Shown one piece after another: positions 14,955-19,273 of a stretch of DNA of 64,000 nucleotides. Source of the DNA: Prochlorococcus sp. AG-409-D09 (GTDB lineage Bacteria; Cyanobacteriota; Cyanobacteriia; PCC-6307; Cyanobiaceae); assembly GCA_003215935.1 (NCBI GenBank), contig QCJQ01000002.1:28500-92499 (forward strand), in the 5' to 3' direction. How positions within the stretch are numbered: position 1 is the stretch's first letter; every line of letters begins with the position of its first letter. Position numbers and translations under genes: made by a program. Below the pieces are notes generated by a model. That model searched no databases. It had not been told where the DNA came from and saw only the letters and a list, made by a program, of their open reading frames with translations.

Positions 14955-15098
14955 TTACTTTTTCTTTCTCCAGTCTCTTTTTAATTCAAAGTTTTTACTA
15001 TTGTCTAAATAAATTACTAATATAAAAAATAAGAACCCAAGAAACGTAACAAAAGCTATAAGTTGGTTAAATGGATTTAAACTTTCAAACCACAACAT
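14955..15098 (-). CDS. Small membrane protein (47 aa)
   Basis: Manual translation MLWFESLNPFNQLIAFVTFLGFLFFILVIYLDNSKNFELKRDWRKKK*. Confidence 0.5.
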   Translation of the reverse strand: MLWFESLNPFNQLIAFVTFLGFLFFILVIYLDNSKNFELKRDWRKKK

Positions 15099-15187
15099 TT
15101 TGTTTAATATATTTATTTTATATTTTATATTTCACTGAGATTAATTTTTGAATATATTACAGAAATTAATATATTATTTTTTCAATT

Positions 15188-15589
15188 TTACTCTAGACCT
15201 TGGAATAATTCCTTGTGAACAACAAATGTATGGTATTGCGTTGTACCTGACTCAGGATCTAGTCTTTCTCCTTCAATATTAAAAGCAACGCTGCATATTA
15301 AATTGCCGTCCCATCTAACGTTGTGCTCACTGACTGATTCCGACCATTGCCGTATTGAATTAAAATGTTCAGGCATATATGTCCCAATTTTCCTACAAAT
15401 TTCACATAGTATTGAGAGTACTGGTGGTTTAGATTTTAAATTTAGATCTTTCGTTAAACTAGGCTGATTAAAAACTCCTATAAAACGGATGTGATCTATT
15501 AATCTTTGCTCCTTTTCTGAGAGCTGAGCTTTTTCACATGCTTTTTCAAATTCATCTACACAGATTTTCGGTCTTGATTTTTTTTTCAC
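15188..15589 (-). CDS. Hypothetical protein
   Basis: 133-aa ORF without recognised domain. Confidence 0.65.
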   Translation of the reverse strand: MKKKSRPKICVDEFEKACEKAQLSEKEQRLIDHIRFIGVFNQPSLTKDLNLKSKPPVLSILCEICRKIGTYMPEHFNSIRQWSESVSEHNVRWDGNLICSVAFNIEGERLDPESGTTQYHTFVVHKELFQGLE

Positions 15590-15789
15590 TTTAATCTCCA
15601 GTCTTTTAACACATTTAATTTATGTAGTATATAATTAGCTAGGACTAACTTTTATAACCTTGGATAATTTCATATCTATTTTCGATATTGTAAAACTTTT
15701 GTTTGTCCTTTCCGTTTCAATTTTTGTATATAGATTTTGTTTAATGTTTATGAATGGAAGTAAATTTAAGAATATCAATTTATTTTCTT

Positions 15790-15819
15790 TATTTGATCAC
15801 TCGAACGAATGATCAAATA
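15790..15819. promoter_or_regulatory. Interrupted palindrome upstream of the Nif11-like gene (operator or terminator)
   Basis: TATTTGATCA (15790-15799) pairs with TGATCAAATA (15810-15819), inner TCG-AA-CGA. Confidence 0.4.
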
Positions 15820-15853
15820 TTCTAATTAACTTAATAATCTTTAGTCCTTAACA

Positions 15854-16069
15854 ATGTCCTTATCTCAAATTAAACTATTTCTTAATCGAATCCAGAATGA
15901 CATAGAGTTAAAGAAAAAGGTAATTAATTGCTCTACAGCAGATGAAGTTGCCCTAATTGGGTCCCAGAATGGATTTGTATTTTCAGGAGATGAACTTCTT
16001 CGCTTTTCTGGTAAAAAAGTTGGAAAAGTTACATTAAAGAAAAATGATATACCAGGAGAATATAGTTAA
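15854..16069 (+). CDS. Nif11-domain-like small protein
   Basis: MSLSQIKLFLNRIQNDIELKKKVINCSTADEVALIGSQNGFVFSGDELL matches the Nif11 leader pattern. Confidence 0.75.
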   Translation: MSLSQIKLFLNRIQNDIELKKKVINCSTADEVALIGSQNGFVFSGDELLRFSGKKVGKVTLKKNDIPGEYS

Positions 16070-16331
16070 TAATCTAATTAATTTTTTATTTGCATTATGA
16101 TTTAATTTGTAAAGAATATAAATATAATAATATTTTCTAACAAGCTTTTTTGTCATTTTTATTATCTTTCCTTTTCGGGATTTCTAGATTTCATTAGGAT
16201 CGATTACGTACTGGTTGACCAATGGAGCTTAATGTTGTAATAGATTTCTATTGAAATAAGCAAAAATGTTACAAATCACAAGAACATTGTGTTTCTAGTG
16301 ATTTGACTGTTATTTATATGGGGTCTTTCTA

Positions 16332-16490
16332 ATGACCATGTTTCCTTTTACATTCGCTGGGCTTCTAAGCACCCCTGCTCCAACAGCTCCTCTTATTGGT
16401 ATCGCATTTATGGCACTATTCGGAGTAATGGCTGTTGTTGTTGGTCCTAATTATGATGGATTTAATGACCCCAATAGTGGTAATAGGTAG
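16332..16490 (+). CDS. Single-TM microprotein with TPAPTA motif, copy 1 (52 aa)
   Basis: Manual translation MTMFPFTFAGLLSTPAPTAPLIGIAFMALFGVMAVVVGPNYDGFNDPNSGNR*; followed by a terminator. Confidence 0.7.
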   Translation: MTMFPFTFAGLLSTPAPTAPLIGIAFMALFGVMAVVVGPNYDGFNDPNSGNR

Positions 16491-16510
16491 TAAATACCTT
16501 CCATTAGGTC

Positions 16511-16542
16511 AAAAAGAGGGGCTTAAAGCCCCTCTTTTTTTT
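16511..16542 (+). terminator. Rho-independent terminator
   Basis: AGAGGGGC-TTAAA-GCCCCTCT followed by a T run. Confidence 0.9.
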
Positions 16543-16982
16543 GTGAATGCTCTAATACCCTCTGGTAAGCTTCTACCCCTTTAGTAGCTATGTCAGAGCT
16601 CTAAGTGAATTTGATTCCCTTGAGTCACTGTAACTAGGTATTTCACGAATACAATTTCAAACTAAAGTACAATTTTTTTTAATTTTACGAATTTATTTAT
16701 TTTTCTTGCAAGGTTACATTTTAATTTTCATCAATATAATGAGACTTCAGTTAATTAGAATTTAACTGAATTTAAATTTATTGGACTTCTTTTTGAAATT
16801 TTCAATTGAAGATAAAACTCTAAATTTACGTTTGATTGTGCTTTATTTTATATTTTGAGTACATAGATTATTCGTACTTGTATAAAAAGCTATTTTATTA
16901 TTGCTTGTATGAAGAACTTATAGAGTAATCAATAAACCTTTTATACTTTTCTGCTATTAATAACTAGCTATATTTAGTCATT

Positions 16983-17132
16983 ATGATTTCTCTATCTTTT
17001 GCAAGTCTTCTTGGTACTCCAGCCCCAACAGCCATAATTGTTGGTATTGCTTCAATTGCACTCTTTGCAATTGTTGGTTTAATGGTTGGCCCTGACTATG
17101 AGGGTATGAATGCTCCAGAGGTCAAAAAATAG
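16983..17132 (+). CDS. Single-TM microprotein with TPAPTA motif, copy 2 (49 aa)
   Basis: Manual translation MISLSFASLLGTPAPTAIIVGIASIALFAIVGLMVGPDYEGMNAPEVKK*. Confidence 0.7.
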   Translation: MISLSFASLLGTPAPTAIIVGIASIALFAIVGLMVGPDYEGMNAPEVKK

Positions 17133-17159
17133 ACTAGATATATAATATAACTTTAATAT

Positions 17160-17193
17160 TAAAATAACTATAACAATCTTGATAGTTATTTTA
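17160..17193 (+). terminator. Hairpin downstream of the second TPAPTA gene
   Basis: 12-bp stem around AAAATAACTAT/ATAGTTATTTT. Confidence 0.5.
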
Positions 17194-17251
17194 GTTACTA
17201 TAAATAAAAAGCTTTCCTTTCTATAGAAATTTTTCTTTTTATTTATAGTAT

Positions 17252-17860
17252 TTATGTTTTAATGAATTTTAAAACTAATTTTTCTAATTCAGAAATTGAT
17301 GGATGAATAAGCTTATATATCTCTATATTCTTTTCTATCTCTAATAGATTTCTTTGGAAAAGATACCAACCCTTTTCAAACCTTCTTGTTACTTCTATTT
17401 TGTCTCTTTTTCTAAACTTCATGTCTCTCTCTAACCTTCTCTTGTAGCAAATTTCTTTTCTTTCAGATATTAATATATTTATTATATTATTATGCTTAAG
17501 AAGTCTAGCCATATTAAAAGCAAATATCCCTTCAACAATTATAAGACTTCTGTCACTTATTTTATTAATATTTACTGTAATTCTCTCAGAAATTTTTGTT
17601 TTAAAATTATATTTATTAGTATTTATATTTGAAACCCCCTCTTTTACTTTTGAAATATCATTATATAATTTGCTTATATGAATACTATTTATATTATCAT
17701 AATATGAATTATTTACTAAACTTGCGAATTTAGTAAACATGTCGTCTTTATAATAGTCATCTGTGTGAAAAATAATACTACTTTTTATTTTTTTACCTAA
17801 TTTCTTGGCAAGATAAGTTTTACCACTTCCAGATGTTCCTGATATAAAGCAAAATATCAT
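17252..17860 (-). CDS. Uridine kinase-like P-loop kinase
   Basis: ISGTSGSGKTYLAKKL Walker A; FHTDDYYKDD; LIIVEGIFAF. Confidence 0.8.
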   Translation of the reverse strand: MIFCFISGTSGSGKTYLAKKLGKKIKSSIIFHTDDYYKDDMFTKFASLVNNSYYDNINSIHISKLYNDISKVKEGVSNINTNKYNFKTKISERITVNINKISDRSLIIVEGIFAFNMARLLKHNNIINILISERKEICYKRRLERDMKFRKRDKIEVTRRFEKGWYLFQRNLLEIEKNIEIYKLIHPSISELEKLVLKFIKT

Positions 17861-17867
17861 TTTTAAT

Positions 17868-18101
17868 TCATTGTGTTTTGCCAGATATTCTTATGCCGTA
17901 AATAAGTTTTTTGATATATCTCTTTCGTTTATCACTATCCAATTTGTCTAAAAGTGTTTTTGTTAACTCATTTTCAAGCTTATTTTGTTTTTTAAGTTTA
18001 TTTCTCTTTATTAGTACTTTACTAAGGCTAATTTTCTTTTTTTGTGTTTCTGCTTTTCTGTTCTCTTCACTTTTAGTCGAAGAATACTTATCAGTTGACA
18101 T
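17868..18101 (-). CDS. Lysine-rich hypothetical protein
   Basis: 77-aa highly basic ORF immediately upstream of the kinase. Confidence 0.5.
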   Translation of the reverse strand: MSTDKYSSTKSEENRKAETQKKKISLSKVLIKRNKLKKQNKLENELTKTLLDKLDSDKRKRYIKKLIYGIRISGKTQ

Positions 18102-18421
18102 GATATAACAATGATTTTTGCTTTTTCTCTATAAGGTTACACCCTATAAAGCATTATCTTTCCAAAATTAAGAAATTTGCTAAAACTGTTTTAGTTGCCA
18201 TAAAACATTGACATACCTATTAGTAGTTTTAATAGGATTGCTTCTATGCCCTTTCACTATTATGTATTTATGGGATTTTATATACGAAAATTCACATAAA
18301 GAATCTACTCCTAGGTTTCAAAGATGATTTTTTATAAATGCTAATTATCAAAACTAAGTAAAATTACTAAAATTATATTGATAACAAGTAATCTTGGTTT
18401 TTTCTTGGATCGGTTTACTAA

Positions 18422-18532
18422 TTATGTTTGGTTTGCTTTGAAAATTCTTTTCTCCATTATCTTAAAGAGCAATATCAGAACAGGTATATGGGCAAGTCCA
18501 CCTGCCACTACTTGAGTTTGACTGTATGCCAT
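18422..18532 (-). CDS. Putative small membrane peptide (36 aa)
   Basis: Manual translation MAYSQTQVVAGGLAHIPVLILLFKIMEKRIFKANQT*. Confidence 0.4.
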   Translation of the reverse strand: MAYSQTQVVAGGLAHIPVLILLFKIMEKRIFKANQT

Positions 18533-18679: not shown

Positions 18680-18916
18680 TTACTCTTCTTTGTCTATTTC
18701 GCTAAGTTCATTCTCAAAGAACCATGTGATTGCTCCGTTGCCAAAATCTATAGCTAATCCAAATTGATTAGCGTCTACCATTTTGTATCCAACTAATTTA
18801 CCGTAAGGATTAGCTTCGATTTGTTTTCTTAAGTTAATAGGTAATTTATCTCTTACTTTGTTTATATCAACTAATAGTGTCTGACCTTTAATGAGTTTAC
18901 TTGAGTCTTTAATCAT
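18680..18916 (-). CDS. DUF2862-like cyanobacterial small protein
   Basis: GQTLLVDINKVRDKLP...GKLVGYKMVDANQFGLAIDFGNGAITWFFENEL. Confidence 0.6.
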   Translation of the reverse strand: MIKDSSKLIKGQTLLVDINKVRDKLPINLRKQIEANPYGKLVGYKMVDANQFGLAIDFGNGAITWFFENELSEIDKEE

Positions 18917-18985: not shown

Positions 18986-19273
18986 TTACCCAATTATGGA
19001 TAGGCTTAATTCTGATTGCAAGCCTCTTAATTTTATATAATTTTGAAACTCGTGCGACTCAAAGGCTTTTTGAGCGGCGTCTTTTGATTCGAATTCAACT
19101 ACTACTCCAAGCTGTCCTCCATCCCACTCATTCAGATCAGAGTTTTGATTAACATCTTTTGCAATTATTGTTCCACCTACAGATCTAAGCCAAGGTACAA
19201 CAGTTTTTACATATTCAATAAATTGATCAGTATTTGCGATTTTTGCTTGCTTTAGCCAATAACCCTTAGACAT
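18986..19273 (-). CDS. DUF1330-like dimeric alpha-beta barrel protein
   Basis: GYWLKQAKIANTDQFIEY...GGTIIAKD...VVVEFESKDAAQKAFESHEFQ. Confidence 0.7.
   Translation of the reverse strand: MSKGYWLKQAKIANTDQFIEYVKTVVPWLRSVGGTIIAKDVNQNSDLNEWDGGQLGVVVEFESKDAAQKAFESHEFQNYIKLRGLQSELSLSIIG

Follow-up and report, generated by a model that had tools for sequence, protein, structure and literature searches.

The question raised by this locus is whether two very short, similar reading frames in the genome of a low-light Prochlorococcus encode real proteins and, if they do, with which part of the photosynthetic machinery those proteins would work. The frames lie 492 bp apart within the 64,000-nucleotide stretch of DNA analysed here, which we call the window, and are named after their shared TPAPTA motif:

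16332..16490, + strand: TPAPTA microprotein copy 1, a 52-aa ORF with a probable start at ATG 16338, giving 50 aa
16983..17132, + strand: TPAPTA microprotein copy 2, 49 aa, of the paralog type nearest the copy fused to ferredoxin-NADP reductase (FNR) in genome G003

The first-pass annotation of this DNA had described the two frames as paralogs, and this is borne out by a local alignment score of 134, where 5000 shuffles averaged 25 and never exceeded 55. Used as a query against its own genome (G000, a partial assembly, about 65% complete), copy 1 recovers these two ORFs only, with E-values of 2.5e-31 and 7e-13; with a broader family profile, one further and divergent gene, belonging to a sister subfamily, also emerges (G000:C2:21865-22002). 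Conservation outside the strain, on which the earlier proposal depended, is found in dozens of genomes. Among these orthologs the mean pairwise pS and pN are 0.29 and 0.016 for copy 1, and 0.48 and 0.018 for copy 2; the pN/pS of about 0.04-0.05 for both copies indicates strong purifying selection. Both ORFs are therefore genuine coding genes, and they are related to one another. The second ATG of copy 1, at 16338, is an invariant methionine across the family alignment, and the true start of this gene is therefore probably there.

An AlphaFold2 model built with 15 family members has a short helix at residues 8-12, a turn at the TPAPTA motif, a long helix at residues 19-37 and a loose tail, with a mean pLDDT of 75. 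The model agrees with a single transmembrane (TM) helix spanning residues 19-37, as had been proposed for each ORF from its sequence. Conservation of the VGP.Y..N motif in the tail equals that of the helix.

Neither the two ORFs nor the family profiles match any family in Pfam, NCBIfam, PHROGs or the PDB, in keeping with the earlier failure to assign them to a named one. Their size and topology had been likened to those of small photosystem subunits. No profile or sequence match to the known small subunits of PSI, PSII, b6f or NDH-1 was found in Pfam, NCBIfam or the PDB chains, and PDB matches to PsaL and an Mtr subunit were dismissed as chance (E above 2). As worded, the photosystem proposal is not supported, for no named photosystem subunit and no solved chain of PSI, PSII or another complex is matched, and the evidence presented below favours FNR and cytochrome b6f. 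A phage origin, or a role as an auxiliary photosynthesis gene, was also set aside, with no copy in IMG/VR viral contigs or phage records.

Among the 300 genomes of the host's family that were searched, many low-light-type Prochlorococcus genera contain close relatives, and the named records that match the family are all Prochlorococcus. The divergent sister subfamily, with the pattern 'GGFNPSAA...IAGPNL.KFD', is also present in genomes of the high-light type, according to inferred clade labels; when it is included, a genome that has any member carries one to four copies in total. In 292 genomes sampled across the phylum, nothing outside Prochlorococcus matched credibly, and weak matches in larger picocyanobacterial genomes (E 0.1-0.9) failed with profiles. 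Judged by these searches, the family is conserved and restricted to Prochlorococcus in the sampled genomes. The copy 1 proteins group together with a support of 100/100, and copy 2 is missing from some close relatives (L102, L107); among named relatives, those nearest in local gene order come from single cells, for example AG-409-P19 (L106). Partial or stop-containing copies are present at G160:C1:1438814-1438939, G271:C23:18242-18376 and G247:C5:858-962, and they show that members of the family are still being gained and are still decaying. We also observed a further family of 41-50-aa proteins, together with one 94-aa protein adjoining a microprotein of the MAYS type described below (L178-L183 and L176:942-1226); these have only an N-terminal half, '(L)ATITVGGFNPLAA..G', in common with the TPAPTA sister subfamily.

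A pointer to function is provided by one TPAPTA match that lies inside a 382-aa ORF, identified as FNR both by its own sequence and by its match to the petH gene of every relative. In every examined Prochlorococcus genome except this one, G003, FNR (PetH) begins with a hydrophobic 'MAYSEA.V.AGGLAHIP..IG' segment of hydropathy 2.1-2.2 (the MAYS anchor) followed by a low-complexity linker, and the petH of the window's own genome bears this anchor (L068). The larger picocyanobacterial genomes have a different FNR N-terminal domain, which we take to be CpcD-like. A CpcD-like domain is the means by which FNR docks in cyanobacteria with hemidiscoidal phycobilisomes (PMC10696076), and a published statement calls Prochlorococcus FNR soluble (PMC5082946).

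G003 is complete in one contig and has a single petH, with no second copy found. In this only petH an N-terminal hydrophobic TPAPTA helix stands directly before the FNR catalytic domain; the ORF begins MYITFASLLSTPAPTAVLAGIGSILLFAIVGLVVGPDYDGMNAPAIK and is nearest to copy 2. Along the DNA, an upstream region and MAYS segment matching the petH of its relative G059 are followed by a stop codon, the TPAPTA domain, a new linker, and an FNR catalytic part that again matches G059, and the insert has 77% DNA identity to G003's own stand-alone TPAPTA gene. The split gene occupies L034:4186-5695 (G003:C1:520185-521694), where the old MAYS anchor and linker now form a separate upstream 115-aa ORF. Because the DNA on both sides matches G059 and the insert matches the stand-alone gene, the sequences indicate that a TPAPTA copy was inserted into the petH linker and is now the N-terminal anchor of G003's only FNR. 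Two further genomes from the G003 genus, both incomplete, do not show the fusion; as a feature of one genome only, it may be an accident that shows mere tolerance of TPAPTA as an anchor.

The fusion also bears on the orientation of the proteins. FNR acts in the cytosol and sits at the C-terminal end of the TPAPTA domain, and the tail of the stand-alone proteins therefore presumably faces the cytosol. The helix would lie in the thylakoid membrane. In each protein a brief N-terminal stretch would lead through a kink at the TPAPTA turn into the single TM helix, and VGP(D/N)Y(D/E)G.N would form the tail on the cytosolic side.

The MAYS anchor is itself not confined to FNR. It heads proteins of 170-280 aa whose central part is charged and which have a further hydrophobic helix at the C-terminus (L189:318-1160, L188:1004-1813, L187, L190, L191), the protein of L189 containing a LysM domain (PF01476). 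Many Prochlorococcus genomes encode another MAYS protein, about 100 aa long, whose tail is rich in Ala, Lys and Glu (L184:748-1044, L185:754-1056, L194:739-1050); in LLI-type genomes its place is taken by a short MAYS microprotein.

The TPAPTA proteins, like the MAYS domain, might simply be membrane anchors of general use, which are duplicated, now and then become joined to one soluble protein or another, and are tied to no specific complex. The spread of MAYS over FNR, the low-complexity proteins of about 100 aa and the LysM proteins would fit this explanation, as would the variable copy number of TPAPTA and the decayed copies with in-frame stops. However, the majority of TPAPTA proteins are joined to nothing that they could anchor, a tail as conserved as the helix suggests a binding partner, and strong purifying selection also argues against a generic role; we therefore consider it unlikely.

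The surroundings of the TPAPTA pair contain three further genes:

18422..18532, - strand: stand-alone MAYS microprotein, 36 aa, a homolog of the FNR N-terminal membrane anchor, identified with the MAYS profile
18680..18916, - strand: PetP-like protein, 78 aa, PF11061 'Cytochrome b6f, subunit Tsr0524-like' (E 1e-16), directly upstream of the MAYS microprotein
18986..19273, - strand: DUF1330 protein, 95 aa, upstream of the PetP-like gene, in an order kept in sister genomes

The ORF at 18422-18532, 1.3 kb from copy 2, is the only match to the MAYS profile within the window. The window, G055 and G109 all have this arrangement, in which a PetP-like gene and the MAYS microprotein that follows it on its strand are separated from the TPAPTA pair by about 1 to 1.6 kb, and clustering of TPAPTA with a MAYS microprotein gene extends over three related genera. 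Six of the nine unbroken genomes have a TPAPTA-type gene no more than 3 kb from a PF11061 gene, where 0.2 would be expected and none of 20000 randomisations reached six, although this random-placement test disregards common descent and the tendency of small genes to gather in islands and is supportive rather than proof. The remaining three of the nine have no such proximity. In MIT9211-type genomes the TPAPTA gene and the sister-subfamily gene are each about 2 kb from a different PetP-like gene, and the draft genomes G012, G017 and G052 likewise strengthen the association. No PSI or NDH-1 gene was recognised among the neighbours in the examined loci.

Prochlorococcus genomes carry up to three PF11061 paralogs (G003, G010, G077 and others). 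Those near TPAPTA-type genes are additional to the canonical PetP of the genome and do not necessarily bind b6f; some of these extra copies have open frames of 126-145 aa. Closer to the pair, the window encodes a 71-aa Nif11-domain protein of the prochlorosin-like leader type just upstream of copy 1 (15854-16066, + strand; PF07862, E 8e-12), and a PRK/uridine-kinase-like P-loop protein convergent with copy 2 (17255-17860, - strand; PF00485), whose identity among sister genomes is 36-38% despite the same position. The kinase, NmrA and Nif11 genes do not keep this position in all genera, and for that reason were set aside as a functional clue.

Each copy was also inspected for its own expression signals:

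16266..16275, + strand: ATGTTACAAA element, a possible promoter or regulator site, at a fixed distance across orthologs
16511..16542, + strand: intrinsic terminator of copy 1 (z -4.4)
17158..17195, + strand: weak AU-rich hairpin between copy 2 and the convergent kinase gene (z -1.2)

The TGTTACA of ATGTTACAAA starts exactly 71 bases before the start of copy 1 and is invariant in every inspected copy 1 ortholog; a single exact match within the window is not itself significant, and the evidence lies in the constant spacing across orthologs. No TGTTACA box was found before copy 2, and separate regulation of the two genes is therefore probable. The first-pass annotation had given each copy a terminator-like hairpin. 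For copy 1 this is sound, with a GC-rich 13-bp stem at 16511-16539 followed by a U-run (-22.9 kcal/mol); downstream of copy 2 the sole hairpin is the AU-rich stem, and no strong terminator is present. Rfam matches on the copy 1 terminator fell below the gathering score and were set aside. A GC-richer, well-folding stretch right behind this terminator (16557-16640), which may be a small RNA or a remnant, is recognised by neither ARAGORN nor Rfam; a tRNA remnant is not recognisable there, and the window has no tRNA or tmRNA.

Small, hydrophobic proteins encoded in tandem with a strong terminator recall type I toxin-antitoxin-like systems, in which the pair would be duplicated small toxins, each transcribed alone. 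This is very improbable: the genes keep fixed orthologous positions and are under strong purifying selection across genera, and a TPAPTA domain on the only FNR of a living cell is hard to reconcile with toxicity. In addition, no Rfam family match above threshold occurs in 15000-18500, and so no Rfam-recognised antisense RNA gene, bearing in mind that Rfam sees known families only.

Taken together, the exchange of an FNR anchor for TPAPTA, the proximity to PetP-like genes and the free FNR anchor in the locus lead us to propose that the TPAPTA proteins are accessory or tether subunits, each with a single TM helix, at the site of contact between FNR and cytochrome b6f, a reading to which we give a probability of about 0.4. 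The helix would be docked next to b6f, or next to a supercomplex that contains it, and the tail, with the PetP-like proteins and stand-alone MAYS anchors, would help to hold FNR or to keep it away, such that the ratio of free to fused anchors could set the balance between linear and cyclic electron flow. TPAPTA could act in either direction, recruiting or displacing FNR. Both b6f as the partner complex and a regulatory effect on electron flow are what we infer from these associations. Some genomes with a MAYS-type FNR and PetP have no TPAPTA proteins at all, and the family is therefore dispensable. In Synechocystis, PetP binds the cytoplasmic side of b6f where ferredoxin-FNR is proposed to dock, and has been proposed to compete with ferredoxin-FNR and so to set the linear/cyclic balance (Proctor and colleagues, PMC9342900).

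The fusion by itself names no complex, and FNR works with the ferredoxin of PSI and for cyclic flow driven by NDH-1 (PMC9144156). The TPAPTA proteins could thus be lineage-specific small subunits of another ferredoxin-proximal thylakoid complex, on the PSI acceptor side or in NDH-1, and the fusion would merely put FNR beside that complex. In size and topology they resemble such subunits. The recurrent neighbours are nevertheless PetP-like genes, which point to b6f, and the lack of any recognised PSI or NDH-1 gene in the examined loci and of any match to a solved chain of either complex also speaks against this alternative, which we regard as possible but on the unlikely side.

To return to the FNR-b6f interface, a broader and more speculative extension, which we think doubtful, is that Prochlorococcus, whose CpcD dock for FNR went when the phycobilisomes were lost, positions FNR by interchangeable anchors, and that free TPAPTA and MAYS proteins compete or co-anchor to load FNR onto or off b6f, as a microprotein switch between linear and cyclic flow. 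An exchangeable hydrophobic FNR anchor, with free anchors beside PetP-like genes, offers concrete, small gene targets for the question of how FNR is positioned and the linear/cyclic balance kept in a phycobilisome-free cyanobacterium. In the open-access literature, to which the search was confined, we came across no account of either the MAYS anchor or the TPAPTA proteins.

Consideration of known systems places these proteins among small thylakoid components. NdhP, NdhQ, PsbX, PetM and other single-TM subunits share their size and topology, but none corresponds to TPAPTA by a profile match in Pfam, NCBIfam or the PDB. PetO is larger than TPAPTA and belongs to the green algae. Like the role proposed here, it is single-pass and bound to b6f under cyclic-flow conditions, and may offer an analogy in how it works (PMC9342900). 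PetP (Ssr2998, Tsr0524; PF11061) is the recurrent gene neighbour and is proposed for the same FNR-b6f site; however, it is peripheral, on the cytoplasmic face (PMC9342900), whereas TPAPTA is a predicted membrane helix and not a homolog. Closest in kind is the MAYS anchor of Prochlorococcus FNR, likewise a short N-terminal single hydrophobic helix, whose place TPAPTA takes in G003 and whose stand-alone form lies with that of TPAPTA within one locus. The two helices have no detectable sequence similarity, TPAPTA proteins giving no match to the MAYS profile (signature MAYS..V..GG.AHIP), and the conserved VGP(D/N)Y tail belongs to TPAPTA and not to MAYS. The TPAPTA proteins would thus be a new family within a known kind, the single-TM accessory proteins of photosynthetic electron transport, and unusual among them in their exchange with an FNR anchor.
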